From NCBI RefSeq assembly GCF_032854445.1, contig NC_088297.1, forward strand, positions 2,853,991 to 2,917,990: a stretch of 64,000 nt of DNA, in the 5' to 3' direction. Made by a program: the position numbers and the translations under genes. A model generated the notes under the pieces. The model saw only the letters and a program-made list of their open reading frames with translations. It was not told where the DNA came from and did no database searches. Source of the stretch: Liolophura sinensis. Lineage: Eukaryota > Mollusca > Polyplacophora > Chitonida > Chitonidae. Shown here one piece after another: positions 33,079 through 63,838 of this stretch (positions are counted from its first letter, which is position 1; every line of letters begins with the position of its first letter).

Positions 33079-33142
33079 ATGGCGACGATAGCAGACCGGA
33101 GGGTAGCTGCGGTCGTTGGTTGCGCGGTAGCGGACGCTGCTG
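33079..33142 (+). CDS. selenoj: Selenoprotein J exon 1 (start codon)
   Basis: ATG in a good context (aacaaaATGG) opens a 21-codon exon starting MATIADRRVAAVVG and ending VADAA plus one base, followed by the strong donor G|GTAAGTG. Phase 1 joins to exon 2 to give ADAAAQPLHW, the characteristic N-terminus of ADP-ribosylglycohydrolase/J1-crystallin proteins. I chose this start because it is the only ATG whose exon supplies the missing N-terminal helix in the right phase. It lies 22 kb upstream of exon 2, so the link is inferred from motif and phase. Promoter elements are not obvious upstream; no clear TATA box was found. Confidence 0.85.
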
Positions 33143-48100: not shown

Positions 48101-51100
48101 GGAAGGGGGATCTTCTGAAAAAGTGAGTAAAGGCAAGATTTTTATTACAATTTGGAGTTTGATTTGATGATACTATGATCAAATTGACCGTGTCTGCTAC
48201 AAAATCTGTGAATGTTCTAAGGCTTTCATGGTTAATATGATTACAAAAACCATGACTGTACTAAAGGTGGGATGACTGTTGAATGGAACACAAAAAATTT
48301 TAGGTTCTACACCTAAAAAAAAGGAAGGGGAGTATTTTGGCCTGAACATGTTAGGGGGAAGATGCATAAAGTAGTAAATTGTACATACATAATATATGTT
48401 TCAATTGCTTGAGACATACCTCATTCCTCCGCCACAAGTCGTCAACACCATAATCATTTAAAATTTCTTCTCCCAACATGAATCTGTCTTGAAGCAAAGA
48501 GACATAGCCTAGCCTTGCTGCCAACAGTAGATCAACTTCATCTTGGAGTTGCATGTGTAATCAGATGAAGCTGCATCGTTCACCGTATGCCCAAGGCGAC
48601 CAGTGGTGTAAGTAGCATCAATGCTGTTTGGTAAACATTCAACATACAAAACTTAATGTACAGTTGCCATGACTGAAAAACTAATGAGCTGGTAAAGTTC
48701 ATAGATCAAAGTGAAATCAAGATCTGTTTTTCTGGCACCAACAAAAACCATCAAAAAGTAGGATTTCAGAGAATCCCAACACCTCACATGATTGAGCAAT
48801 TACAGGCTGAGAAGCCGCAAAACGTGTAAGTGGTGATGTCTTTATAAAATATTGACACAGAAATGCTTTCTGTATGTAACCTATCCCTTTATGTGTCTAG
48901 GAATTGAACAGTAAAGGTTGATCTCAATCCCATGCAAAATCTGCTTCTATTAAAAGTACATGATAGCTAAGCAGAAAAGCTTAACCTTTATCACATACAC
49001 ATACTAATAATCAGAGCTAAGCAGAAAAGGTTAACCTCTGCCTTCTATACGTAAGCCATCCCATACGTCTGGCATCTGCATGAACAAACTGGGCATTACA
49101 CACAGCTCACCTGATAGGTCAGTTAGTAAAGGTGCAAAATGTTTAAGTGGTGAGACATTAAAATATTGATACAGAAAAGCTTAAATTTTGCTTTGTATAC
49201 CTAAGGTATCCCCATTATATGGGAGCTAAATATAAAACCTTAACCATGACACCAACACTGCACTTTCTCCCCCCTACTATTTCCCCACCTGAACTTCATA
49301 CAGTTGTCATGAAGTTATACTTCTCATAAAGGTGTAGGTTGGCAATCATTGAGACAGTTAGGAGTCTCGTGTGAAAGGAATTTATAAAGTTTTGATACCA
49401 GATAATGCCATGGCAACCAGATTTAAGGCACGATGCCAGGCAATTGTAGCTAAAACTCAGAATTTCTAACACAGAGATTTAAGAAACAAACCATCAAACC
49501 AGGCAAATAAAGGCCAATAATCACAGGCAGAATAATTCACAATTTTTGTCACCAAGCCTCAAGGCCAAATGTTTGAGCAATAATAAATGTGTGAAATAAA
49601 TTCACCACAAGACAATCTACATTACATACAGTGTACTGCGTTATTTCTATGTTTATTGACACCTATCATGTACTCGAAGAAAAAGCCAAGGTATGAACTT
49701 GTGCCAAATTTTTAAAATGGGAAATCTAACCTTTGTAAGGCTGTAATATCTTAATAAATCTTTGCAGAGAGAGTGGCACAGAAAATGTGTATTTAGACTT
49801 ACCACTTTTCACCATTTGATTAAAAGAAATACAGAAATGACCTTCGCCCTCTGTATTTATTTTCACGGAGTAAAGCTTCTTTCTTGTTGATACATTCTCT
49901 CCAGCATATTTCAGTAAGAATTCCCCCTTTTGAAACTCTTTTTCTGCAAAAAACTCATACCTTGTTAAGTTTACAAATACAACAAATGTGAACCATTTGA
50001 AACATAACATATCTTAGTTTTGGACCAGACTGAAACAAACATCAGTAAAATATGACTTTATCATGTCACATTTTTCATGAATACTATTGTTTGTTCACAG
50101 CAAAGGAAAATGATACCAGGAGAACTTCTGGATTTCTTTTCTGACAATAATTCCACTTTATAAAGCAAGTCAGCCCAAAGACAGTAATCATTTAATTAAT
50201 GGATAAAACTTGTGACAGAATGTGACATTTCATTTGTGATACAAGGCAAGGTTAACACAACCCCCCCCCCCCACCCCCCCATGAAGTCAGAAATGGCTCT
50301 ATAAGGTAGCTTGGAATTGGAATATAGCATTTACTGTTTATCCCTGATGATAATATAACATGCAGCTACCATAGCTTCTTTCAGAGGCATTTAGGAATTG
50401 GGATGGTATAGATTGACAGAGGCATTACTTATGGAAAACAATAAATCCAGGAGTTGTTATCCATAAGTAATGCCTCTGTCAATGTAGCTACCTTACCAAA
50501 GAGTTTCATTTCACCCCATCACATGCATGCACATGATCAATGACTTACCTTTGTCACATGCATGCACATGATCAATGACTTACCTTTTGTCACATGCATG
50601 CACATGATCAATGACTTACCTTTGTCACATGCATGCACATGATCAATGACTTACCTTTGTCACATGCATGTACATGATCAATTACTTACCTTTGTCACAT
50701 GCATGTACATGATCAATGACTTATCTTTGTAATCATTAACATATCTCAACTGCATGCCATCCTTGTTAGCCAGTGTCTCATCATCACTGACCTCTAGAAA
50801 AGGCCAATAATGAAGCATACACTTATTCACTTGTCGGCATGCGCTTGTCTTTTTCATGTGATGGATTAGTTAGAATTTTGCAAAGTGTCTTCTGAAGAAA
50901 TTCACTTTCAACATCATGTTAAAAACCAGGCAGTCTTTTTTGTGAAGTGACCAGTTTGCACACCTATTCTGTGAAACTAAATGAAACTTCTACACTACAA
51001 CTACATACTTGTTACCCTGCTTTCAAGGCTTTACAGATGTGTGTATCAATAGCAAGTTAACACTGCATGTGAGTTCAAGTCCAGCTTATGCTGGCTTCCT

Positions 51101-54100
51101 CTCCGGCCGTAAGTGGGAAGGTCTGACAGCAACCTGCGGATGGCCGTGGGTTTCCCCCGGCTGTGCCCGGTTTCCACCCACCATAATGCTGGCCGCCGTC
51201 GTATAAGTGAAATATTCTTGAGTACGGCGTAAAACACCAATCAAAAAAAAAAAAAAATCATTGGATTCTTTTTCATAAGACTGGTTCAGAGCTGTAAAAA
51301 GAAATGGAGTTGGCTAACTCATTCATATTTTCAGAAGGTATCAAGCCCTTAGCGTTACAGACCAAAAATAATAATACACTAAAGCTGGCATTCCAGATAA
51401 TGGACTTTATAAAATACATTCATTGTACAGATATTCTAAGACAAACTTCAGATCAAAACCACAAAATCAGTACAGAACTCTTACCCGGGTTGCTGTTGCG
51501 CCACAACACACAATGACGGAGTAGTGGCGAGTGTAACAGTTATGGCAACGCATTTGCATGTTTATCATGGGGCTGCCGCTTCACTCTTTGTCTTCACGAA
51601 TCCCCATTTTTGTAGCTGTCAGAGTAACAGCTAAGGCAACAACAGAACAAATCCGTCACAATTTCATAAAAAAGGAAATAAGCGAACCAAACTGAACAAG
51701 ATATGTAACCTGTCATGGTGAAGCCATGATCAAACGTTTTAAAAAAAGAAGTCTGAGGGACTGAGAACGGGGTGTAAAGGTGTAGAACCGGTAGGGGAAT
51801 AGTTAGCAAAATGGATGAAAAGAAATCAAACAATGGACCAAGGTAATCTGACTTACCAACTGCTTTCCTCGGGTCAACATGGTTCATCTAAGAAAACTGT
51901 CCTAAAAAAGCTTAACTTTCTCTCCCTTGGCTCTAATTTCGTCTTCGCGCCTTTTGGGTACCATCCATCCTTCAAATGCTTAACCGAAAGTTTCGCGAGA
52001 ACGAAATTGTCAAAATATTCTGTTCGTTTCACTCAAGCATGTGAAATGCAAAAACACGTTGTTCTTGAATAAATAAGAGATAAAGAAAAAAATAGATTTG
52101 TGCCATAAGTTAAATTTTACAGGAATAATGTACTGATAAACACAGTAGAATAGTCACCATCCCAGTTAACATTTTGCTTCTTCGTTTTAATATCCCCTTT
52201 GACTGGAACATTTCCTGTATCACTTTACTCATTCCGCATACTTGTCCGCGTTGTCCCAAAATGACAAAAATGTCCGCTGCCGAAAAATACTGGCATATAT
52301 TTTAGCGATTTGGAAATAAAAAGAAATATCCCCACTGTTTGATGTAACCTGGACAGAGCACTGTGAATTTACGACCACCCCAACATGCTTTTAGGTGAAT
52401 ATACTATTGCTAACTTATTTTTTTCAACAATAATGAAGACGCTATTCGCCTGAATGCATGTTTTCACCGCACGGTACAAATGTGCGATGCTGAGCCATCC
52501 AATTTATATAGGGTCTTGGTTCACCCTCACATGATCATGTATCCAAATCTGAAGATCCTATCTCAACTGATTTGGCTTCTATTGACAGCATGTCATTGAA
52601 GTGGCTATTGTATTTGGTTGCTATAGAAACCAGACTTTTGAAATGAACCCAATTTAAATAGAAAATCCTCAAGTGAATAGCCTTCTCGTCTGAACACATT
52701 CAAAATTTGAAGTTCCTATCTCAAGAACTTTTGCTTCTATGGTAAGGAAGTCCTTCATGCGGCTACTATAGAGTTAGTTGCCATAGAAACTAGAAATTTA
52801 ATCGAAAATATCCCAATCTATAAGAACAGACAACACTAAGCCAGTGTACATATGCAAACGGTAAAGTTTTCACACCAGAACCAGGTAACTCTGAGAAAAT
52901 CGCAAGTACCACCATGTTGTCAGATCAGCCGAACCAATTCATAGTTTTAAGTACTCAGTCATGTACAACTTATTTGTACAATTCGGAACGGCCCGTGTCA
53001 ACTGTGAAGTCACCCGATCCTTGTGTGCCTTCAGTCAAGCCCAACAGAGGGCTCGCATGCCGCGAAACCGTGCCTCTGGTTTCTTTAATTTGCAACATAT
53101 CATATACTCATAGGGATTTAAGATTACTATATCCTCTATAGACTTACAAAGCATGTTATACAACAGTGGCCGTTATGAATAACCTCAACTGCAATTCCTC
53201 TTTTAAAATAACACGCTCACAGGTCGTGTTATATGCACTTGGATCACCCTATCCTGAACGCATATCTAAAATTTTACGTGCATCGCTCGAGCGGTTTGGC
53301 TATTGCAACCTGAAATGGATGGGCTAACTGACGAAATATATTTGTGGGGGAGGTTGTAGGGAATAAGCTGGTGTCTCTATAATTCATTCATGTCACTGTT
53401 TTTTGATGCCTAGCATTGAAAATGCGATTGCTAGGTTGGCAACCCACAACTACAATAGCTCCTCAGAAACTGATTAATTGATTGAGTGACTTTATTTAAC
53501 GAATTTTCATGATAGTGAAACGAAAGACAATGGCATCGCATGAATGAAATGCGGAGACAGCAACTTATTCCCTACAAACTCCCAAGTGCTAGTTTTGGCG
53601 AGCACTCTCGGCGACTTTCAGCTTCTTCTTCTTGTGACGTCGCGGGAATGTGATTCGCAGATTGTGAAGCAATTAACCGCTTAACTGTCTATAATAAAAC
53701 AAGTATACCTGTTCCCAATTTGTAACAAGCTTTACAGTCATTCGGTTTTCAAACAATTTTAAGTAGTTATACAGAGTGACACTTAAAAGGCTTACCTTAG
53801 ATCATTTTTTCCCCGATCCAAACTCTTCGCAACTCTAAGACAGACTCGTATCTTGTACACCGCGTCATTAAACCTGGCTGTTGCAAAGTACGAGACAGCC
53901 TTGTGACAGCATTGCCAATAGTCGTTGCACGGTGCCGTGTTGTACCCCCGATAACGTATATATGTTTAAAAAAAACTTAGACAAGGGACTATATATATGT
54001 ATATATATATATGAATCGTCGGTCGGCCTTTTTATGTGAATCTGTGCACATGGGTTATATATCTGCTGTGATATACGTCCAAGTTCAAAATTGTAGATAA

Positions 54101-57100
54101 GATGATGATTGGGGTTTTTTCTGTGTGTTTAGTTACTGTTGCATTTTAGTGGCATTTAGGGGCGCTAGATCCAGGGTCAATCCTGGGCGTAAGACATTAA
54201 AAGATGAAGTTGTAGGTTCTTCGTTTGGCGTTCAGCATTAAGAGGATAGTGCAACAACTAGTTGACCCGTATCAGTGTAGGGCTCGGTGGGATGGCTTAT
54301 TTGCCCCCAGTTGTCTCAGTGAAGCAGCACTAGATAAAAGAACGGTGGAAATCCGCCCTGCACCAAGGAGGCACATCACGCGCACATGCACTCTAAGGAC
54401 TCTTTCATCGTCACATGACTTAAAAATTGCTACGTACGACGTTAAGCTTAAGCACTCACTCACTCACTGTGGTATTTTTTGGACTTGACCAATTTCACTC
54501 AATATGCATATATGCATAAATTTTTTTTCAATGTAGCACATTTTATATAAAGTTATGAAAATTTCAGTGTGATGTTGGTCATGCATTACCAGTTTAAAAT
54601 TTTTGTTCACGATTTGTGGTTAAATACCACAGTAATAAAAATTAATGTACGCCTACTTTTTCCTTTAATAATTTACCTTTAAATTTCATTTTAATTTGAC
54701 TATTGGGACTATGTATTGCGCATGCGTGCAGCGTGCGGAGTTTGTTAGCATGCCAGCGCAGCGCAATGTCCCAGGAGCTTGCCGCCAATGAGATCGCTGT
54801 GAGTTCATACTGGCTTCCTCTCCGGCCGTACGTGGGAAGATCTGCAGCAAACTGCGGATGGTCGTGGGTTTCCCCCATGGTTCTGCCGGTTTTTTTCCCA
54901 CCATAATGCTGTCCACCATCATATAAGTGAAATATTCTTGTGTCAAGTCAAATAGATAAATAAATAGTAATTGTACTAATTGTGATAATGCAGTAATTAA
55001 CATATATGTTTAATCGTTGTAAGGTTTGTTTCATTTTTTAGAGCACAATTAACACAGCCGTAAATGTTTACGCGAATTTATTGGTTGTTAAATGTATTTT
55101 TGAATGGTTAGAAAACGTGAAAACCTTTACTTTCCCATATGTGTTTAAGCAGATCACATGGATAACTATGTAGATTTTGTAACGGTGATATGTTATTTCT
55201 AGGGTTTTTGTAGAAAATGTGTTGACTGATTTGACTGATAAACAAAAAATGCATTTTTTATTGTTTGCTTGTTGTTGTTTTTTTGTTTTTTGTTTTTTTT
55301 TTTCGCTTTATGTTACTGTACGATTATCTTTTCTTCAGCTCAACCATTACACTGGAATTACCGGAAGGAGAAACTGGACGCACTCTTGGAGGGTAAAGAG
55401 GAAATTGAATTTTGGGAGCCTTCCCAAAATCCTTTTTATTGCATTCCGACCGGAAGACACAGTTGCTATGGCGATCAAGCCCAGGCCATTCTCGAGTCTT
55501 TAGTCGAATGCAAGGGTAAAGATAACTTGTTGTTTTGTAAACAAAGTCAAGTTGAAACAAATTTGTTTAAAGAAATTATTTCTGTATTTTTACATATTTC
55601 TCTAGTATTTGGACATATTGATTGATCTTGGGGAATCCTTTTGGGGATAGATATTTGCAGTTGTCGACATTAAGGGTGAAACCCATACATTTAAATGCGA
55701 AAAACTCTTTTAATTCAAAAGATACTGCACTTTGTACAGGGCAGCAAAAGGTAACTATGGTCTCAAAACTCTCGAAACTCCCCTCGAAGTCGGGAAACCC
55801 TGGATCAAACCCAGTTCGGGCCTTACCATGTAAGGACTTAAAAAATCGTACTTGTTTCTGCCTTGCTTGTCACTCAGCACTGTCAGAGAGGTTCTAGCAA
55901 AGAAACAGCACTGGTTGGTCCCGGTGTCAGGATATTGTGACTGGGTGTCGGGGGCATTTTGGCGGCATGGACTCGCCCTGCCACAAGAAGACCTAATATA
56001 TATGTACACACACCTAATGACTACTCGTTGCCATATGACAGAAAAATTGTCAAGTACGTCGTAAAACCCCAAACATACATCGACAACCCTTGGAATATTA
56101 TGAAACCCAGCCTCTTCTTTTTCCTACACGTTTACCCGCAGGCGTTAACGTAGAGGACTTGACAAAAAGACACTACAAGAAGTTTGGTCCCGACTCCGAC
56201 TACGACAAGAGCGAGATAAACAAATACATGGGCGAAGAGCGTAAGAAAATTCCCCTTTTATTTACACCGATATTCTGTTGTCAGATTTGTGTGTTATACA
56301 CGTGCATTTGTATTTCTGTTGAAGGTGCGATAAGCCGAATCGGTATTTTAGGAATCCCGCAAGTTCACGCAGATATGGACGAGACAGGGTGAAGGCTCTT
56401 GCAAACTAACGCAGCTATAAAAGGCGAGATTTTACGGTACTTGCTAGACTGAATACGCATGGCCGGGTTTATTAGCACAAAGGCACCGTTGGCAGCTGCT
56501 GTTAATTCGCGAAAAACCCCAACCTATCTCTTCTCAACCTGCGTGAACTCGCGATATTTCCTGACATGCCGACTCGGGTTACGTGTATTATAATTCCTCA
56601 GTTCCTTTAGAATGCCCATGCATGAGAGCAGCCACTATGACACATAGCCTATTGGTTGCTTTAACAAATGACTGCTTTCACATAAAGATCAAATACTAAG
56701 AACAGGAAAAGTTTGTCTTTCAATGCAGCCACATTAGTTTTTGCAGAAAGTATAAAATATCATTTCCTGCTTGTTGATTCATAATGTTAAAAAATAGTGG
56801 AGGAACTTTACAGTCTTTATTTATGGAAACATAATACGGAAGGTTTGTGCTTATTTTAGTGGCTTTTAACGGATAGTCAGGCTTTTATTGTTTAACTTAC
56901 ATGCCGGCATTCAGGTTGATTGGTGGAGGAATCTGGGGTGACCTGCACTCATAATATCAGTGGTCTATCTCGTCATGCTGATCGACTAAAGAATGACGAG
57001 ATAGGCCTCTGATATAATAAGTGTGTAGGGGTGACCGGGTAAACCACGGAATTTCGTCAGGTATATACGTTACCTTGCAAACCTCCGGACTTAAAAAAGC

Positions 57101-60100
57101 CGCTGACGAGACACCGAGAGCTGGACTGGAACCCGTGGCATCAGTAATCGATCAAAGACCTGATGGTGGCCACCGTTGGTTCATCTAAGCCAACTTGGCT
57201 CCCAGCAGTTATAGGAGCCATGCATGAGCTGTCGAGGATTTATACTCACAATTATAACTATAGATTAACGATATAAGTCATACTCCTCACAGTGCATTCG
57301 CCTCCATCAGCAAATTTTATACAGCCTTGAATAAATCCGAGGTCACTGGGGTCACGGTGATGAACAGAAACTCTCAACCATTGTTTCTAATAATACTTTA
57401 TACACATGGATTCCACTTGTCTAAAGTTTGCTCAACATGATTCTGACTAATACCCGAAACAGCTTTATTCACGAATGCTGATTAAATAGTTCCGCTCGAT
57501 TGCACCAGTGGTGAGGCTAAGCCTGCGCAAACCTACGTGCGTCTCACAGGCCCCATAGGTCAAGCTTGTCTAGTTGTGGCAGCGATGAAAAACGAGAGTA
57601 CAGAGCGGCGCATGCGCTGTAAAGAGTATTGGTATAAGTAAGCCTTTCTGCTGGAAATATTTTGAAAGCTCTGAAGGTACCTTATCATAATGGCTATACC
57701 GGTTATCTGGGACACGTGCCTATGTGATGTCTATATTTCTGTAGATGGCAAAGTGCAGCTGCCCATCCCCGTCCCCTGGAGACATGCGAGCATTAAGCAT
57801 TTCCTCAAGAATTATGAGACCAAGAAAGAAGAAACAGGTAAAGGAAACAAATGGGTTTGAAAGCAAAAAGCCAATAATACACACACAAAAAATTAACCTA
57901 TTAATTTTAACGCAAAGTCTGTTGTCTGAGTGATTCTAAAATGTATTCTGTTATTATAACACAATATTGTGTCACGTTCAAGATAATATCCTCTTAGAGT
58001 AATAGAACGGTTATGTTGAATTAATAGATTTATTTATGTATTTATTTTATTTGAATTAATAGAATATGTGTGTTATATCTAACAGACTAACCTGGTACAA
58101 TACATTCCATCGTCACTCAGATAACAGACTTTCTGTTAAATTGAACAGATTAATTTTTTGAGTGTATGTATGTTGAGGCTGCTTATCGAAAAATCAAAAC
58201 TGTAATCAATGACTGATCACATACATTAATACCCTCAGGTATGAAGTACAGGTATGTAAAGTACGCATTTCCTTTCGCAGTGAGGATTATTCGTGTTCGC
58301 GTTATTTTTCGCAAACACGGTACATTTCTAGAAAATACTGTGCATGTATGAAACACAGTCCTGTATAAAACTTGAGGAATACACTTTGTTTGCACGCGAC
58401 ATCTCGCCGTGTAATCACCAAAATAGAAACCAGAGAAGAAAAAAAAAGGCTAATGACGCACAGGCCATTTCATGACATGCACGCGAATCTGATTGGAGGA
58501 ATTTTTTGAAATTTGCATACAGTCTTGTCCTTGGGATTCCATACATTTGACTGATCAAACTACGACCAAAACTTGTCCGTGTATGTCATTTTCTATACAT
58601 TAGATGCCTCGGAGTTGTAGACCGTTTACCCAAAAGAATACTTGTATGACTGTTTTATAGATTGTCCCTTAGTAAGTAAAGATAATCAATCTAGACTATT
58701 TCTTTTTGACATCACACTGAGGTATAGGCTCTGATACTGGAATGAAATTACACCCTATGTTATAGGCTCTGAAACAGATAGCCAGGTGGACTGTGCAGCG
58801 AAAATTGCGCCGGTGGTGGCGCTGTACGCCGGGCATCCGGAACTGTTGGAAAAGGTGGAAGACGTCATCCGCCTGACGCAAGCGTCTGACGTCCCAGTTA
58901 CCATTGGATTGGCAGCGGCAAGGTAAGATATCAGATGTTCACGAATAAAACATACAGTTTGTTTTTTGCTTAAACACATTAGTGAGGGAATAAATTTAAA
59001 TTAGAATGCATTCCATGATGTGTTACAATACTTGAATAGCTCCTTAGGCTTCAAAAGGCCCCAGGGCGAGGATCTTGTTCTTGTTCGAGGAGTTGTCTTT
59101 AAGTCTCTGGGATATACGAGGTGCAGGTTCAAACCCGGCCTTGGCCAGCCAATTGTTTTAATTCATCTGGTCTTACAGTTCCTGGGTACTGATGACAGTA
59201 TAAGGTTGGGTGACTATTTGCACATTCTAATGTTCGTTGAAGATCACTTGTCCTCCACTTATATGGTGTGCTTCTACGTCAGAGGTAAGAAAGTAGGTAG
59301 TTTCTTTAATAACTTCCCGGGGCCTCCGTGGCTCAGTCGGTTAAAGCGCTAGCGCAGCGTAATGACCCAGGAGTCTCTCACCAATGCGGTCGATGTGAGT
59401 TCAAGTCCAGCTCATGCTGGCTTCCTCTCCGGCCGTACGTGAGAAGGCCTGTCAGCAACCTGCGGATGGTCGTGGGTTTCCCCCGGGCTCTGCCCGGTTT
59501 CCACCCACCATAATGCTGGCCGCCGTCGTATAAGTGAAATATTCTTGAGTACAGCGTAAAACACCAATCAAAAAAAAAAAAAAATAATAACTTCCCAAAG
59601 ATCGGCAGTGTATTCCAATCACCCATTCTCCATTAAACGGACAGCCATCCTTTAAATGAAACATTCTTAAGAATGGTGTCCAACAACAATCGAAGACAGT
59701 TAAATTCTGCAAATAAGTGAAAGGATTATGCTTCAACCGTAAGGTCAACTCCCCCACCCCCAACCTCTCCGCCCAACCCTGGCTCGTTGAGGCTGTTTAA
59801 TCCTTTCAACGAAAGCGGGGTGAAACAGAGAGCATTCGCCCAGGAGACAATACATGCCGATTAATTCCATTGACCGCAAACATGCAAGTAATTTGCAAAA
59901 ATTTCTGTCTCCGACAGGCTACTTGAACATTACATACTCCATGGACCGGATCCGAACGCATTGGAGGCTGTCATAAAAGAGTTGTCTTCCCCTGGTAGGA
60001 AAAACCCACAGGATTTGGACAAGGCCGTGGCAGGTTATCTACGACAAGTTCTGGAGAAGAGAGAGGTCCCTCATTACAACGCTGTGGCGGAGAGCTTTAG

Positions 60101-63100
60101 AAAAGACTGACGTAGGTCAATGTTATAATGCTCCTGTGTTTGTGAAACTGACGTCCGATGTAAAGGTCAAAAATTCCAGAGCGTGCCGATAATTTATTTA
60201 CTTGATTGGTGTTTTACGCCGTATTCGCGAATATTTTACTTGTACGATGACGGTCAGTACAATTGTGAAAGAAAACTTGGCAGAGCCCGGGGGAGTAGGG
60301 GGGAGGGTGGAACGACGACTATCCGCAGGGTGTTGCAGACCTCCTCACGTATGAGCCGAGGAGAAGCCACGTGAGTTTTATTTGAACTGGAACTCAGAAG
60401 TATCAGAAATTTTGTTATTTTATTTATTTATTTGACTGTTTAAAGCAATACTCTAGAATGCCGACAAACCATTGACTACATATAGTTTATGGCGAGTCCT
60501 AATCGAGAGTGAGGGAATTTGGATATTCGGCGTTTTTCAAGCCCAAACAGGGATAATGCAACCTCACTAAAGACCTTACCTCTATCCTGTTGAGGGCAAA
60601 GTATAGCTTTTGAACGGTACTGAAAAAATGCCGAAATGATTAAGTGTCACATACATCGCAGCAACGTGATATCGAGGGCATCTTTGAAATTATTGTTCGG
60701 TTTCATCCACAGCACAATTTCACATCGTCCAGGAGGATGTTTGATTCTGAAAAGTCGATGGTTTAACGGTCAAACAACCGACATCAATCTAAAAAACAAC
60801 TTATCATGTAGTCTTGGAGTTAAACTTGTAAAAAACCATTAAGAACAGTTGCCTGATACTGAAAGAAGAAACGACCATTATTAGTGGTGTCCTTTTTAAC
60901 TTGTCCGAGTGAGTCAAAGTAGGACTGAAGTTGAACTCCACCTTGCAAGACAACGAGTATGAAACTAGAATACCATGGAATATCAGTGCTTGTTTAGCAG
61001 CCTTGTCTACATTCTCGTTTGCCCCTACCGTGACATGAGCCGGAACCCAGACCAAACAAATCTCCGTTCGCTGTGAATATAATCAAGTGATAAGCGACAA
61101 TAACTCCAACACAACAAAGGAAACGGTTTGCGAACAAAAGTTCTCAATTGTCTGAAGAGCTGCTACTGAATCACCAAAAATTACTGTCCTCACCGGTCGA
61201 TATTCCTCTAGAAAACGTACAGTCTGTTTCTACCGAGAATGAAACTTCTCAAGGCATTGTCATATCACCTCTTTTATTCAATTTAATGATAAAAGGCTGA
61301 TATGGTACAGCCCAAAAATAAATGTGGTCTGTTTATAGACGACAAAGCAGTCTGGATATCGTTCAGATGTTTTGAACTGGAGCATAAATACACCCAGCAA
61401 AGTCTTAATTCATTGTTTAATTGGGGCTCGAAGAGGGGCTTTAAGTTGGGCAGATAAAACAGGTTTGCTTATGTTATCCATTCCAGACTAGATTACTGTT
61501 GTGAAGTGTACGATTCAGCTTGTATGGATGATTGCAGAAACCGACTGGACTACTTACAAAGACAAAACTCTCACACAAAACGTTAGCTTTTTCCACATTA
61601 GTGACAAACGTGTCGCCGTCTTTTATAAGTGTGGGAATTGAACTGCTGTAGTTGTTTCCTGGAACAACATTTACTTTACTCCATGCAGATTCAGAATTTA
61701 CAGTAGAGCAACACAAGCGCTAAAAAGGCTTCTGAGTTCTCTTAATTCTTTTTAGGGTTGAGCTTTTTCACCCTTATAGTTAACAATTTTAATACGTAGT
61801 AACGTACGGTTAGCTCTGGTTTTTTTTTTTTTCGGTCTTACCGTCTTTAATAGCCTCTTCACAGTCCTCAAATTTGTCCTTTATCGACGATATTTTAACG
61901 AGCACCTCTCCCACACCTCTTCGCCGTTCACGCTTTCAGTCTTAAACCGACGGCTGCCAATATGTACGCACAAATTCCTTACGCCATACGAATCGTAGAC
62001 ATCGCCCCGAGAACATACGGACAAACACGAGGACTGCTGACAAAAAAAAAAAAAAAAAAGCCTTGGCGGACAGAGACAGATTATTGAAGCGGAACAAATC
62101 ACCAACAACAGCTCCAAGAAAGATAAAGCAGAAAATGCTTGTGTTTGTCCAGATGTTCTCGGGGCGATGTCTACGAACTCTGCATCATGCCGTCGGGCCT
62201 ATCATAATATCTGCTGCAAGTTTTAGTCCAGTTCAAAATATATTATATTGTTCATGGACAAATACTGTTTGATTTCATTTTCATCGAATTCATCAGCCAA
62301 ACCATAAGTCACCCTTTTCACAACTGTTTTCGGAAAGCATTTGACGTCAATTCCCATAATGTTCGTACATGCGAGTATGGACTGGATATGTCTAGTATGA
62401 TTACGTTCAATATGCAAATTTCCAGCAAACAATCAATCGCTTGACAGATTTTATGGTGCCATTTTTAATAACCTGCTGCAGAGATTCGCCTAGCCTCAGT
62501 GGGTTTAGTTTGCCCAAACCCTGATAGTTGTTCCCTTGATAGCAGAAACAGATGAAGCACCAGACGGCTTTTCTTACGTATATCTGTCACATCCTTAGCT
62601 CATTGACTTAACTCGACGTTTACCCGATTGGAGAGTGCTTGGGCTGACATTCCATGTAAGATTCAAGATTAGCTGATTTCACAGAATCCTCGGACTTTTC
62701 CACTGTAAACAAGCAGTAAGAGTGGGACAGCTCACAGCAATTGGCATTAATAATTGGAGCCTATGTTAGTAGTACTGAAAGACTGTATATACAATCAAAA
62801 CAGCCTATCTCCTAAATATTAGCCTATGCCTACATAAGTGTATACAATCTAAAGAGAAAAAAAATAGAGCTAACCTACAAACTCTACACATTGGGGAAAA
62901 AACAAAAAAAAAAAACAAAAACATACACACACACAATATGTACAATTAAATATACAAAGCGACTCTTCAAATCATCATACACCAACAAAACACCAAAGCT
63001 CAAAAGCACTTCTTTACTCTACCACATACAAGTCGAACTCGCTCTCCTACTTGTGACATACTAGTATGTTATTCAAACCGGTAGAAGTCATATGGTTTCT

Positions 63101-63838
63101 TGAACTTAATGAACGACCACACAGAAAAGCATTGCCGACCTTTGATTGCTACTAAAGCCAAAATCTAGACAATTCCCTGTCCGAGAAGGGATTGATCTCA
63201 CCGTTTGTCGGAAGCAATCAGTGATGGATTTATTTAGTTCATTGGTGTTTTAAGCCATACTCAAGAATATTTCACTTGTACCACGGCGGCCAGCATTATG
63301 GTGGGAGTAAGCCGGGCAGAGCCTGGGGGGAAACCACGACCATCCGTAGGATGCTGGTAGACTTCCCCACTTACTCTAGCGATTGAAATAGGTTAATTTG
63401 TATACATGTGCACACGGGCCTAGTTGTATTTGCAGGGAGCCCTTCTTTTCCTTTGACTTCAGATATGACGTCATTAATTCGTGTGCTGCCCATCTGCTTT
63501 TTGACGCCGCCTCCTGTGTGCCTTGAAGCGATTAGCTCCATCTGACGTTAGAGAAAGGGAAAGAACTGCTGAAACACGCTTACGTTATAGTGACCTCGTG
63601 TTTGAAGCTACTGGAACTGAAGAACGGCTTCCAACAGTTCCGTCTGTTGAATGGGATGAGAAGATTTGTTATCATTCGTCTGTTTTGTATTGTTTCAGAC
63701 TTGCCTGGGTCCTTCCAGTCGGCATGTCACGGCATGCTGACAGGAACGGACTTCGTCTCTGCCGTCAGGCTGACAATCAGAGCTGGTGGGTGTACCTGCT
63801 CCAGAGCCTCCTTCATCGGCGCTTGCTTGGCCGCCCAG
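33079..63838 (+). CDS. selenoj: Selenoprotein J gene, J1-crystallin/ADP-ribosylglycohydrolase fold (span; 3' end outside window)
   Basis: Seven coding exons (33079-33142, 55339-55515, 56142-56240, 57745-57837, 58766-58922, 59918-60111, 63699-63838) join with matching phase at every junction (1,1,1,1,2,1) into 308 codons. Recognisable J1-crystallin motifs run in order: VADAAAQPLHW, FYCIPTG, CYGDQAQAILESLVE, HASIKHFLKNYE, KIAPVVALYAG, GLAAARLLEHYILHGPDP, RKNPQDLDKAV, LPGSFQ, AGGCTCSRASFIGACLAA. An in-frame TGA is codon 261, next to LPGSFQ, where relatives have Cys or Sec. The family shares the ADP-ribosylglycohydrolase fold, but the Asp-rich metal sites appear replaced (AGGC-C-S at the C-terminal site); its activity is unknown to me. 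SelJ is known from ray-finned fish and sea urchin, with Cys forms elsewhere. About 15-20 C-terminal residues and the SECIS element are missing because the window ends. Intron 1 is 22.2 kb and contains an antisense gene. Confidence 0.88.
33585..35368. repeat. 55 bp hairpin satellite in selenoprotein J intron 1
   Basis: About 32 units: gacgattggcctatacgctg, aagataggcctatgtacata, tagatgtgttaaatt. Each unit contains the inverted pair ggcctat / ataggcc around a 9-base loop, and the palindrome ataggcctat. It begins about 440 bp after exon 1. Confidence 0.95.
35570..36250. repeat. Loose tandem repeats
   Basis: A 33 bp duplication (tatttggatgaccat) at 35573-35633, then repeats of about 60-120 bp with gtgcacaaacattttgtgca, tttaggcgaccacatctgta, tatgtcgcccaaatgacaca at 35815-36250. 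The stretch 36260-37285 shows nothing recognisable. Confidence 0.8.
37288..37346 (-). mobile_element. SINE A tail next to minisatellite
   Basis: tttatttattttgattggtg...aatatttcacttatac; the SINE body is abruptly replaced by the 63 bp minisatellite. Confidence 0.65.
37360..39030. repeat. 63 bp minisatellite, about 26 copies
   Basis: Unit ccagaaattagtttttaaca, ctgggtgccacgtgaagcca, agtcttggagataggaatct. Because 63 is a multiple of three, both strands stay open for over 500 codons (plus unit QKLVFNTGCHVKPSLGDRNL). No start context, splice sites or domain support translation. Confidence 0.95.
39076..39359 (+). other. Possible plus-strand coding remnant, two exon-like blocks
   Basis: Block 39076-39166 reads PHSISMLVSGESASEPLDAG then NLRFAEPML plus one base before donor GTAAGT. 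Block 39262-39359, after acceptor tttattcacag, reads DADFDPSSSSEICVPMTTP and stops at TAA 39357. The phases agree (1/1). No family recognised; the Asp/Ser-rich text resembles linkers of transposon-derived proteins. It may instead be chance, since the minus strand of the first block is also open. Confidence 0.25.
39624..39670 (-). pseudogene. SET/recombinase locus terminal exon 13
   Basis: Acceptor tttgattatag; in phase 1 it encodes RQLPRTKREISSGL then TAA at 39624-39626. A short basic C-terminus. Chosen because it is the first acceptor downstream of exon 12 giving an in-phase stop; low support on its own. Confidence 0.4.
39943..39984 (-). pseudogene. SET/recombinase locus micro-exon 12
   Basis: 42 nt, phase 1 both ends, acceptor ttttttacag, donor AAAA|GTAAGA. 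Encodes DRENDTEEEIPRK, a diverged copy of exon 10. Confidence 0.5.
40606..40650 (-). pseudogene. SET/recombinase locus micro-exon 11
   Basis: 45 nt, phase 1 both ends, acceptor acttttaag, donor CATG|GTAATG. Encodes PAVIQDEEWNETSH, a diverged copy of exon 9. Confidence 0.5.
40970..41240. repeat. Dispersed repeat D
   Basis: gttgtaaaacaccatactca, ctgggataaaccgccgactt, attggtggaaaacaagtggt. Confidence 0.5.
41569..41616 (-). pseudogene. SET/recombinase locus micro-exon 10
   Basis: 48 nt, phase 1 both ends, acceptor tatttcacag, donor AGAA|GTAAGA. Encodes DTENDIEEERRQFVR. Similar to exon 12. Confidence 0.5.
42220..42484 (-). mobile_element. SINE A copy, full length, near micro-exon 9
   Basis: tatttatttgactggagttt through gaccatccgcaagttgcagg to caactgagcaatggaggcct. 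Confidence 0.8.
42542..42577 (-). pseudogene. SET/recombinase locus micro-exon 9
   Basis: 36 nt, phase 1 both ends, acceptor tttgtag, donor AATG|GTAAGT. Encodes PAIPDTAEDWN. Similar to exon 11. Confidence 0.5.
43072..43152 (-). pseudogene. SET/recombinase locus exon 8
   Basis: Acceptor tttctttgtag, donor TACA|GTAAGC; 81 nt, phase 1 both ends. Encodes ADIPMQEEFTKKSDFRK then NRRKKTGSY, a basic segment. Confidence 0.55.
43513..43872. repeat. 14/17 bp minisatellite
   Basis: Mixed units atactgatgtaaac and aatatactgatgtaaac, about 22-24 copies, between exons 7 and 8 of the SET/recombinase locus. All three minus frames are open in it, an effect of the repeat. Confidence 0.92.
44213..45876 (-). pseudogene. 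SET/recombinase locus exon 7, zinc fingers and tyrosine-recombinase-like domain
   Basis: Acceptor tttttgtgacag, donor CAGC|GTATCT. The start KENHKGHYSKPGRPCPFC and SRRH give a C2-H finger; CNGFYSTKYFSRHK and KCRGLC give a second. A long helical region follows. Near 44726-44758 NGRRGGEPRRLSL matches the first catalytic Arg box of tyrosine recombinases, YQSGKG the Lys hairpin, and near 44275-44320 THMGHSERINRDIYQ the GH-x-Y box. The second catalytic Arg (LRK in relatives) appears as MCH, that is Cys. Frameshifts lie near 45540, 45375 and 44573; the last is consistent with one lost base in a Pro codon before DTAPALRIL. Confidence 0.75.
46300..46625 (+). mobile_element. SINE B copy inside the SET/recombinase locus
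   Basis: ggtagatccaggatcaatcc, cttcctcgcttggcgttcag, atccgtcctgcaacaaggag, gttaaaccccaagcactcac. It lies in the intron between exons 6 and 7. Confidence 0.85.
46989..47232 (-). pseudogene. SET/recombinase locus exon 6, Ser/Thr-rich linker
   Basis: Acceptor acatagcctag, donor TCTG|GTATGC; one open frame of 81 codons beginning DICASWPDGDDTS and ending SSDNKS. It is Ser/Thr/Asp rich, like the disordered linker of such proteins. Phase 1 out matches exon 7, but phase 0 in clashes with exon 5, so either an indel or another exon intervenes. Confidence 0.5.
47330..47812. repeat. Dispersed repeat ending in a hairpin
   Basis: Repeated internal phrase acttcatgaatttcct (twice) and gttacaatga (three times), a gacagacagacatc stretch and a terminal 9 bp stem ccttagccc-gaagt-gggctaagg. 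Probably a non-autonomous retroelement in the intron between exons 5 and 6. Confidence 0.45.
48042..48114 (-). pseudogene. SET/recombinase locus exon 5, linker
   Basis: Acceptor cactttttcag, donor GATG|GTAAGA; phase 0 in (matches exon 4) and phase 1 out. Encodes KIPLPTVFKPPKIINFQSQN then ISSD. No domain; a linker following the SET domain. Confidence 0.6.
48420..48623 (-). pseudogene. SET/recombinase locus exon 4, SET-C with frameshift
   Basis: Acceptor tttaccaaacag, donor GAG|GTATGT. One frame reads IDATYTTGRLGHTVNDAASS then CNSKMKLI, matching the SET core (DAT-x-GRLGR-x-ND). A second frame then reads RLGYVSLLQDRFMLGEEILN and DYGVDDLW, matching the SET end GEExxYDYG with Tyr replaced by Asn. 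The switch of frame lies near 48520-48540. The exon must therefore be frameshifted. Confidence 0.7.
48640..49800. other. Intron with diverged internal duplicates
   Basis: gcagaaaa(a/g)g(c/g)ttaacct occurs at 48970 and 49020, and ttaagtggtga...aaatattgacacagaaa recurs at 48830 and 49145. No coding signal. Confidence 0.4.
49803..49943 (-). pseudogene. SET/recombinase locus exon 3, SET-N
   Basis: Acceptor agttttttgcag, donor AGTG|GTAAGT; 141 nt, phase 1 both ends. It encodes EFQKGEFLLKYAGENVSTRK, the N-terminal strand pair of SET domains (GEF-x-Y-GE). The residues usually found just before (GVFA-like) seem displaced, since the intron end itself would read EFFAEKEF. Confidence 0.65.
50413..50482. 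repeat. Perfect 23 bp inverted repeat
   Basis: ttgacagaggcattacttat-gga at 50413-50435 is the exact reverse complement of 50460-50482, with a 24-base loop. Outer arms aaggtagct (near 50304) and agctacctt (near 50487) extend the symmetry. Confidence 0.85.
50517..50732 (-). repeat. 35 bp tandem repeat carrying a 5' splice site
   Basis: Six copies of acatgcatgcacatgatcaa-tgacttacctttgtc. On the minus strand each copy ends ACAAAG|GTAAGT, a good donor, except the exon-proximal one, which is AAAG|ATAAGT. GT positions (minus) are at 50688-50689, 50653-50654, 50618-50619, 50582-50583 and 50547-50548. Confidence 0.88.
50725..50793 (-). pseudogene. SET/recombinase locus exon 2 with mutated donor
   Basis: Acceptor ccttttctag; 69 nt, phase 1 both ends, encodes VSDDETLANKDGMQLRYVND then YK. 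The expected donor reads AAAG|ATAAGT, lacking the GT, while five 35 bp copies just downstream keep AAAG|GTAAGT. Confidence 0.6.
51065..51256 (+). mobile_element. SINE A, headless
   Basis: catgtgagttcaagtccagc through gcaacctgcggatggccgtg to aaaacaccaatcaaaaaaaa. Confidence 0.85.
51857..51887 (-). pseudogene. SET/recombinase locus exon 1
   Basis: ATG followed by AACCATGTTGACCC; encodes MNHVDPRKAV plus one base, donor TTG|GTAAGT. VDPRxAV is the typical start of KMT5A-like SET proteins of this type. Phase 1 out matches exon 2. Confidence 0.6.
52543..52805. repeat. Diverged tandem duplication, two units of about 130 bp
   Basis: aagatcctatctcaactgat...ttggttgctatagaaaccag and aagttcctatctcaagaact...ttagttgccatagaaactag. 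No coding signal. The stretch 52810-54150 shows nothing further. Confidence 0.6.
54160..54469 (+). mobile_element. SINE B copy in selenoprotein J intron 1
   Basis: gctagatccagggtcaatcc, ttcgtttggcgttcagcatt, atccgccctgcaccaaggag, agcactcactcactcactg. Confidence 0.8.
54740..54965 (+). mobile_element. SINE A copy
   Basis: tttgttagcatgccagcgca through gcaaactgcggatggtcgtg; tail partly lost (gtgtcaagtcaaatagataa). Confidence 0.75.
55339..55515 (+). CDS. selenoj: Selenoprotein J exon 2
   Basis: Acceptor ttttcttcag at 55338, donor AAGG|GTAAAG at 55516. The 177 nt exon is phase 1 on both sides. It encodes QPLHWNYRKEKL, an acidic stretch EGKEEIEFWEP, then FYCIPTGRHSCYGDQ and AILESLVECK. The FxIPTG...CYGDQ block is the J1-crystallin version of the first ADP-ribosylglycohydrolase signature. 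Confidence 0.9.
55770..56082 (+). mobile_element. SINE C copy in selenoprotein J intron 2
   Basis: ctcgaagtcgggaaaccctg, gatcaaacccagttcgggcc, gcggcatggactcgccctgc, ending cgtcgtaaaaccccaaacat. It ends about 60 bp before exon 3. Confidence 0.65.
56142..56240 (+). CDS. selenoj: Selenoprotein J exon 3
   Basis: Acceptor tttacccgcag, donor GAGC|GTAAGA; 99 nt, phase 1 in and out. It encodes VNVEDLTKRHYKKFGPDSDY and a charged tail ending YMGEE. The DLT-R-YKKFGPDS-YD block is typical of J1-crystallins. A SINE-like copy ends just upstream at about 56082. Confidence 0.88.
56915..57150. repeat. Dispersed repeat D in selenoprotein J intron 3
   Basis: gattggtggaggaatctggg, ctcataatatcagtggtcta inverted later as ctctgatataataagtg, gaccgggtaaaccacgga. 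Confidence 0.35.
57745..57837 (+). CDS. selenoj: Selenoprotein J exon 4
   Basis: Acceptor tatttctgtag, donor ACAG|GTAAAG; 93 nt, phase 1 in and out. It encodes GKVQLPIPVPWRHASIKHFL then NYETKKEET. WRHASIKHFLxNYE is a conserved family block. An ATG at the exon start is in another frame and is not a start. Confidence 0.9.
57886..58164. mobile_element. MITE-like element in selenoprotein J intron 4
   Basis: aaaaaattaacctattaattttaac at left and ctttctgttaaattgaacag...ttttttgagtg at right are inverted ends of the same family; a short T-rich SINE-tail-like insert sits at about 58025-58060. Confidence 0.6.
58766..58922 (+). CDS. selenoj: Selenoprotein J exon 5
   Basis: Acceptor ctatgttatag, donor CAAG|GTAAGA; 157 nt, phase 1 in and phase 2 out. 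It encodes SETDSQVDCAAKIAPVVALY, then AGHPELLEKVEDVIRLTQ and ending in GLAAA. These helices are highly conserved in J1-crystallins and in ADP-ribosylglycohydrolases generally. Confidence 0.92.
59028..59165 (+). repeat. tRNA-like segment, possible SINE head
   Basis: Contains gaggtgcaggttcaaacccgg, a B-box-like sequence, but no good A box or cloverleaf. Probably a SINE relic rather than a tRNA gene. Confidence 0.3.
59319..59583 (+). mobile_element. SINE A copy, best preserved, in selenoprotein J intron 5
   Basis: Full tRNA-like head (ggggcctccgtggctcagtc, B box gagttcaagtccagc), body ccggccgtacgtgagaag, cctgcggatggtcgtgggtt, tail gcgtaaaacaccaatcaaaa. Useful as the reference copy for the family. 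Confidence 0.9.
59918..60111 (+). CDS. selenoj: Selenoprotein J exon 6, contains in-frame TGA (Sec)
   Basis: Acceptor gtctccgacag; 194 nt, phase 2 in and phase 1 out. It encodes LLEHYILHGPDPNALEAV, then GRKNPQDLDKAVAGYLRQVL and NAVAESFRKD, followed by TGA and one C, then donor GTAGGT. Reading through the TGA, the split codon C+AC gives His and runs straight into LPGSFQ in exon 7. A weaker alternative donor, CAG|GTTATC with the last exon base at 60033, would also be phase 1 and would avoid the TGA. It would delete 26 codons, including the TGA and a conserved helix, so I consider it unlikely. Confidence 0.88.
60108..60110 (+). other. selenoj: In-frame TGA, predicted selenocysteine codon (residue 261)
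   Basis: The TGA is in the exon 6 reading frame (63 codons after the split first codon) and is followed by C, a context that tolerates readthrough. Conserved coding sequence continues in exon 7 in the same phase. Relatives carry Cys or Sec immediately before the LPGSF motif. A TGC or TGT to TGA nonsense mutation in a dying gene is the alternative, but every other codon and splice site here is intact. Confidence 0.82.
60190..60400 (-). mobile_element. SINE A, diverged
   Basis: ttgattggtgttttacgccg, gcagagcccgggggag, gactatccgcagggtgttgc. A second short T-rich tail follows at 60415-60455. Confidence 0.7.
60850..61230 (-). mobile_element. LINE RNase H domain remnant
   Basis: Minus-strand reading VIFGDSVAALQTIENF then ICLVWVPAHVTVGANENVDK and AAKQAL are RNase H motifs (D-S, WVPAHxG-x-NE-x-D-AAK) of LINE retrotransposons; the Gly after VPAH is replaced by Thr. 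Broken by a stop. Confidence 0.6.
61225..61570 (+). mobile_element. LINE reverse transcriptase remnants, inverted relative to neighbours
   Basis: Plus-strand fragments in shifting frames: SQGIVISPLLFNLMI (RT motif QG-x-SP-LF), CGLFIDDKAVWIS (the F/Y-x-DD box with first Ala lost), then LDYCCEVYDSACMDDC near 61490-61530 (post-RT region). Stops and frameshifts show it is dead. It faces opposite to the flanking minus-strand LINE pieces. Confidence 0.5.
61590..61716 (-). mobile_element. LINE ORF2 linker fragment
   Basis: Minus-strand reading WSKVNVVPGNNYSSSIPTL then KDGDTFVTNVEKANVLCESF matches the segment between endonuclease and reverse transcriptase in non-LTR retrotransposons (IP-L-KDG-x-V-x-EKA-L-x-F). 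Degenerate fragment. Confidence 0.5.
61988..62182. repeat. Inverted repeat around an A-rich tract
   Basis: The segment near 61990-62030 (tagacatcgccccgagaaca) recurs inverted near 62139-62182 (tgttctcggggcgatgtcta), flanking an 18-A tract at 62041. It could fold back on itself; probably two copies of a LINE end inserted head to head. Confidence 0.6.
62230..62432 (-). mobile_element. LINE ORF1 (gag-like) fragment
   Basis: Minus-strand open stretch with GIDVKCFPKTVVKRVTYGL and DEFDENEIKQYL resembles the RNA-binding region of Jockey/RTE-like LINE ORF1 proteins (pattern GV-x-D-x-DE-E-I). It is the upstream part of a broken LINE that continues at 61720 to 60850 on the same strand. Confidence 0.4.
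63222..63378 (-). mobile_element. SINE A, headless
   Basis: tttagttcattggtgtttta through ggcggccagcattatggtgg to cgaccatccgtaggatgctg. Confidence 0.75.
63699..63838 (+). CDS. selenoj: Selenoprotein J exon 7 (penultimate or near-last coding exon)
   Basis: Acceptor gtattgtttcag, donor CCAG|GTACGT; 140 nt, phase 1 in and phase 0 out. It encodes LPGSFQSACHGMLTGTDFVS, AVRLTIRAGGCTCSRA and FIGACLAAQ. This is the C-terminal signature; AGGCTCSR replaces the GGDTDT metal site of active ADP-ribosylglycohydrolases. The presence of a donor means at least one more exon lies beyond base 64000. Confidence 0.9.

Follow-up and report, generated by a model that had tools for sequence, protein, structure and literature searches.

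The window analysed here, a stretch of 64,000 nucleotides on a contig 27 Mb long, in a genome of 609 Mb, carries exons 1 to 7 of a gene for a J1-crystallin-like protein, the eighth exon lying about 0.8 kb past the window end in flanking sequence. Joined in phase by script, the eight exons give one open frame of 340 residues, counting a TGA at codon 261 that is the only in-frame stop ahead of the terminal TAA. All seven introns are GT-AG with agreeing phases, and the first is 22 kb long. The features are as follows, with window numbering continued into the flank.

Exon 1: 33079..33142, plus strand; start codon, MATIADRRVAAVVGCAVADAA and donor gtaagt, from an upstream motif search and an in-phase GT-AG join to exon 2.
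Exon 2: 55339..55515, plus strand; in-phase join and genome search with the protein (C3:2909331-2909510).
Exon 3: 56142..56240, plus strand; in-phase join and genome search with the protein.
Exon 4: 57745..57837, plus strand; in-phase join and genome search with the protein.
Exon 5: 58766..58922, plus strand; in-phase join and genome search with the protein.
Exon 6: 59918..60111, plus strand; carries the TGA close to its 3' end and has donor gtaggt; the genome-search match holds one TGA.
TGA, candidate selenocysteine (Sec) codon, residue 261: 60108..60110, plus strand; joined frame, and a column that is Cys in the bacterial relatives described below.
Exon 7: 63699..63838, plus strand; contains HLPGSFQ and the J1-type motif AGGCTCSRA; in-phase join and genome search with the protein.
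Exon 8 with the TAA stop: 64806-64904, TAA at 64902-64904 (L003:1797-1895), plus strand; flanking sequence, genome search and join.
Possible 3'-UTR intron: 64936-65451 (L003:1927-2442), plus strand; read from the sequence, with a strong acceptor.
SECIS-like element: 65469-65536 (L003:2460-2527, C3:2919459-2919526), plus strand; Rfam SECIS_1, pattern scan, and outer helix by eye.

An earlier sequence-only reading had described seven exons joined in phase, with a single TGA at the end of exon 6 and LPGSFQ next. Within the window this stands as described, and the joined frame confirms 261 as the residue number, but the gene has an eighth exon. At the exon 6/7 junction (60111/63699) a split codon, CAC, encodes His262 ahead of LPGSFQ. 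Past the TGA, 79 codons stay open across two further introns to the TAA, which is more than would be expected by chance. When the whole genome was searched with a draft protein, each of the seven matches at E <= 0.001 proved to be an exon of this gene; the draft lacked exon 1, which thus falls outside its matches, and had a wrong exon 3/4 join. No second copy was found in the genome at E 0.001 or better with this query lacking exon 1.

Several repeats were seen around the gene by eye. SINE-like copies (tccgtggc...ctccggccgtacgtggga...) occur at about 59320-59570 and 51060-51255 in the window and at about L003:2022-2270, the last sitting within the possible 3'-UTR intron. A tandem array with units of about 60 bases (tatacttgggaggacctgtaggctggg...) extends over about L004:2330-7060, downstream of the gene. 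An HDV-like ribozyme match (RF02682) was found on the minus strand at L003:7540-7608 (C3:2924539-2924607), with 39.6 bits and E 0.00037, against a gathering score of 44. It may belong to a retroelement; by eye, similar sequence lies near L003:8880-8925 in opposite orientation.

Selenoprotein J (SelJ) resembles J1-crystallin and belongs to the ADP-ribosylation enzyme family. Compared with Pfam, a 285-residue draft of the mollusc protein (lacking exons 1 and 8 and with the wrong exon 3/4 join) matched ADP_ribosyl_GH (PF03747, E 2e-28) across draft residues 3-284. Among solved structures, the draft lacking exon 1 had weak matches (best E 5.2e-5) to ADP-ribosylglycohydrolases and to ARH3. TDDT and GGDTDT are the canonical metal-binding motifs of ADP-ribosylglycohydrolases; these Asp motifs are absent from the mollusc protein, which has YGDQ and AGGCTCSRA in their place. 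The motifs shared by the mollusc protein and 17 bacterial relatives, and absent from three canonical relatives, are here called J1-type, a label of this analysis for a purely bacterial comparison set. At E values of 10 or less, Pfam ADP_ribosyl_GH matches the mollusc's own genome at 17 places, the SelJ gene among them; the genome thus has other family members, none of which was recovered with the protein as query. One of these (L077, C8:30362525-30363454) is an ADP-ribosylglycohydrolase match of 419 residues in one uninterrupted frame, covering nearly the whole domain at 202.8 bits, and the rest are matches in pieces.

Bacterial relatives were gathered in three ways: by tblastn against plasmids, by pattern scanning of genome contigs and by searching one phylum, represented by 398 genomes. 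The plasmid search, with the draft lacking exon 1, gave six matches, of which four were used (H2 and H6 were left out). The genome-contig scan relied on two patterns, both far from the TGA, and in its alignment-based form 9 of 151 stretches were relatives; the alignment behind it and behind a viral-contig scan was built on the draft with the wrong exon 3/4 join. The corrected protein matched in eight of the 398 genomes, one being the genome of L019. From this search L066-L072 were used, while L028, which repeats the L019 genome, was left out, as were L073 and L074, additional stretches from G253 and G103. No relative was found among the 24 pattern matches of a single-protein genome-contig scan (draft query), by tblastn against phages (draft lacking exon 1) or among the 74 stretches of the viral-contig scan. 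The gene neighbours of seven bacterial relatives, compared by eye, had no common partner.

Twenty relatives were aligned. Three (L016, L018 and L072) were set aside as canonical after the alignment had been seen, because they lack the YG and GG..(C/S).RA motifs and have TDDT- or SDDT-like ones. The remaining 17 (L015, L017, L019-L027 and L066-L071) are J1-type, and are unevenly spread, five of them being close Vibrio relatives. All 17, which form nine clusters at 70% identity, have Cys at the column of the mollusc TGA, as anticipated by the sequence-only reading, which had expected the TGA to fall on the Sec/Cys column; the check holds here against bacterial Cys forms. No other column has Cys in all 17, which makes a random stop at this place unlikely. 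The Cys of the GGDSC motif, for example, is kept in 12, and is Ser in the five close Vibrio relatives. In the three canonical relatives the TGA column is Gly. The segment VAESFRKDU of the mollusc protein aligns without gaps with VAES.GMHC of the Vibrio relatives.

Upstream of the TGA the mollusc protein is 22-30% identical to the 17 relatives, and downstream of it 25-33%. The downstream figure is the higher one in 15 comparisons, equal in one and slightly lower in one (L071), so the coding part past the TGA is not decaying. These comparisons bear on the possibility that the TGA truly ends the protein, as a genuine stop codon or a recent nonsense mutation, in a J1-crystallin homologue that is truncated or decaying. 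TGA is a stop in most genes, but here it is followed by a long open frame crossing two more introns, by coding sequence at least as conserved as that before it in 16 of the 17 comparisons, and by a SECIS-like element, and it occupies the single column with Cys in every J1-type relative. Taken together, these make termination at codon 261 a very improbable account of the gene.

A second possibility is that an in-phase donor after 60033 is used in place of that at 60111, skipping the TGA and giving a Sec-free protein 26 residues shorter, in which case the SECIS-like element would be incidental or belong to another isoform. Both donors leave phase 1, so that the skip keeps the frame, and the exon side at 60033 reads CAG. 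The intron side, gttatc, has neither A at +3 nor G at +5, however, whereas the donor at 60111 is gtaggt and the other coding donors are gtaagt, gtaaag, gtaaga, gtaaag, gtaaga and gtacgt. The skip would also remove the segment that holds the relatives' invariant Cys, and would leave the SECIS unexplained. We give this route very little credence.

The sequence-only reading had called for a SECIS element beyond the final exon, and a SECIS-like element is present there, beginning 564 bases beyond the TAA in genomic distance. Rfam SECIS_1 matches at L003:2466-2526, on the sense strand and downstream of the TAA, with 24.6 bits, which is below the Rfam curated gathering score of 35 for this family. 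The E-value is 0.11 for 3,121 bases from just before the stop searched against 4,227 families, or about 3e-5 for one family by division. By eye, a helix I of 8 bp, AAAGAGAA/UUCUCUUU, flanks the match. The core is GUGA...UGAA, with GUGA and not AUGA; helix II has nine of ten positions paired, with one A-A mismatch, and AAA lies near the start of the apical loop.

The score may be set beside those of other elements in the same genome. In a joint Rfam search of nine 401-base stretches, SECIS_1 was found in five, at 34.9 bits (the L013 element), 24.6 (SelJ), 22.2 (about 1.3 kb past a deiodinase match), and 21.4 and 18.1 (past two glutathione peroxidase matches). The SelJ element is thus second, above the deiodinase match and both peroxidase matches. 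The eight control stretches had been picked via a second folding scan or Rfam; L091, L093, L095 and L097 gave SECIS_1 and L089, L090, L092 and L094 did not, which suggests either that the model misses real elements or that some of the picks are not SECIS. With our own pattern scanner the element is the top hit over 92.8 kb on both strands (score 15, the next being 10), and ten shuffled copies reached 14 at most. A larger shuffle gave 282 hits of at least 15 in 316.6 Mb of single strand, about 0.9 per Mb, a rate that is a rough guide and no blind test, since the scanner was written after the element had been seen.

Other searches did not single the element out. It is absent from the matches listed in a 30-kb Rfam scan and from those listed in a whole-genome SECIS scan in which 150 of 13,032 candidates were scored. 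Folded without constraints, the stretch gains no stability over its shuffles (z -0.22) and lacks helix I. MAFFT aligned the 3' side of eight own-genome elements poorly, and no covariance model was built from them. A pattern scan of 17 loci, on the contig strand and so with minus-strand peroxidase genes outside it, had hits in L013 and L035 only, with none in L014, and an Rfam search of seven peroxidase loci gave no SECIS. Among the matches listed in the whole-genome scan (150 of 13,032 candidates scored), the best SECIS_1 match is at L013:1501-1568 (C12:2217677-2217744; 34.9 bits) and the second is in L014 (23.8 bits).

The position of the element in the mRNA depends on the possible 3'-UTR intron, the removal of which is suggested by its sequence. 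With the intron spliced out, the element would follow the stop by about 50 bases and the UGA by about 290; with it retained, by about 560 and 800. The TAA would lie 31 bases before the 3'-UTR junction if the intron is real, and the UGA precedes two coding junctions, so a ribosome stopping at the UGA would, by what is established about such termination, be expected to expose this mRNA to decay.

An assembly or base error, the codon really being TGC or TGT in a plain Cys J1-crystallin homologue, would need a change of one base, but the SECIS-like element downstream would be purposeless in a Cys form, and the chance of such an error is negligible.

The genome has a tRNA-Sec and further genes with in-frame TGA, as in an organism that decodes UGA as Sec. 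The tRNA-Sec search gave 32 matches, five of them over the cut-off. The two top-scoring ones (80.4 and 79.1 bits) are called tRNA-Sec, anticodon tca, by ARAGORN. Around the third (59.3 bits) only the 80-bit gene next to it was called, and the fourth proved to be a tRNA-Ser. In-frame TGA, counted wherever in the match it fell, was found in matches to glutathione peroxidase at 7 of 15 places and to deiodinase at three of four; a search for the Rdx family gave one place, without TGA. Four of the glutathione peroxidase matches with in-frame TGA, together with a fifth without, form a tandem cluster of about 20 kb (C1:34845391-34865606). The C-terminal domain of molluscan haemocyanin, a marker of molluscs, occurs in eight copies in 11.4 kb, and all 14 hits listed for one functional unit against solved structures are haemocyanins.

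The reading that we hold with high confidence is that the mollusc gene is a Sec form of SelJ, in which UGA 261 is read as Sec by means of a 3'-UTR SECIS and tRNA-Sec. It is supported by the gene model with its open frame past the TGA, the column with Cys in every J1-type relative, the SECIS-like element, and the tRNA-Sec(UCA) and other genes with in-frame TGA. The UGA very probably encodes selenocysteine. With the 3'-UTR SECIS element and the genome's tRNA-Sec directing it, the ribosome would insert Sec at codon 261 and go on for 79 codons to the TAA; the product would be a J1-crystallin-like protein of 340 residues in the ADP-ribosylglycohydrolase family. Residue 261 may have a redox (selenol) role. 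The proposal of the sequence-only reading that this genome keeps a Sec form, extending SelJ to another lineage, is supported by the column and the SECIS-like element.

As an additional member of the known family SelJ, the mollusc Sec form places SelJ in lophotrochozoans, and a rare, patchily distributed selenoprotein gains an animal lineage. This makes one early origin with many losses likelier than separate origins in a few lineages. That Sec stands where distant bacterial relatives have their only invariant Cys speaks for a chemical role of residue 261 in a family often filed as crystallin-like. Sec in place of the one invariant Cys of the bacterial branch suggests thiol or selenol chemistry across the J1-type branch. 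We put forward tentatively, and with more doubt than belief, that this branch may consist of thiol/selenol enzymes and be not merely a lens-protein offshoot, with the invariant Cys/Sec as the working residue and the canonical metal motifs rebuilt. If so, the Sec form would be at least as old as the bilaterian ancestor and would have disappeared more than once, limpets being one case.

Comparison with known systems may begin with the canonical ADP-ribosylglycohydrolases (DraG, ARH3, MJ1187 and the haloarchaeal L016 and L018), which belong to one Pfam family with the mollusc protein. They differ in their TDDT- or SDDT-like motifs (L016, L018 and L072) and GGDTDT (L016), none of which the mollusc protein has. 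The bacterial J1-type proteins (Vibrio, Endozoicomonas, Salinisphaera, Alisedimentitalea and others) share with it the YG and GG..(C/S).RA-type motifs. They have Cys where the mollusc protein has Sec, mostly GGDSCGRA or GGDSSGRA where it has GGCTCSRA, and GADD.Q where it has GSETDSQ. The jellyfish J1-crystallins, which are Cys forms and lens proteins, would belong to one subfamily with the mollusc protein. Castellano et al. are said to have described, in 2005, a Sec form of SelJ in sea urchin and Cys forms in cnidarians.

The distribution of SelJ given in the sequence-only reading, ray-finned fish and sea urchin, was too narrow, since SelJ is reported from amphioxus (PMC3473315) and algae (PMC7539508) too. 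Of the six invertebrates of Jiang et al. (2012), amphioxus alone had SelJ, with none in Lottia gigantea (their Table 1) or Capitella teleta (PMC3473315). Among vertebrates it was found only in fishes, according to a 2012 survey (PMC3316567), and algae have both Sec and Cys SELENOJ, as stated in another paper (PMC7539508). In Ensembl, fewer than 1% of the genes for SELENOJ (along with SELENOE and SELENOL) were well annotated, according to a 2026 study (PMC12822975). Gene callers handle genes of this type badly, so other mollusc copies may hide in present annotations. The literature searched, available in part, held no report of a mollusc SelJ, and an earlier publication is possible. The SelJ proteins of fishes, amphioxus, algae and sea urchin resemble the mollusc protein in having one Sec and a SECIS in the 3' UTR; the new case differs in its occurrence in a mollusc, and is likened to them by family features.
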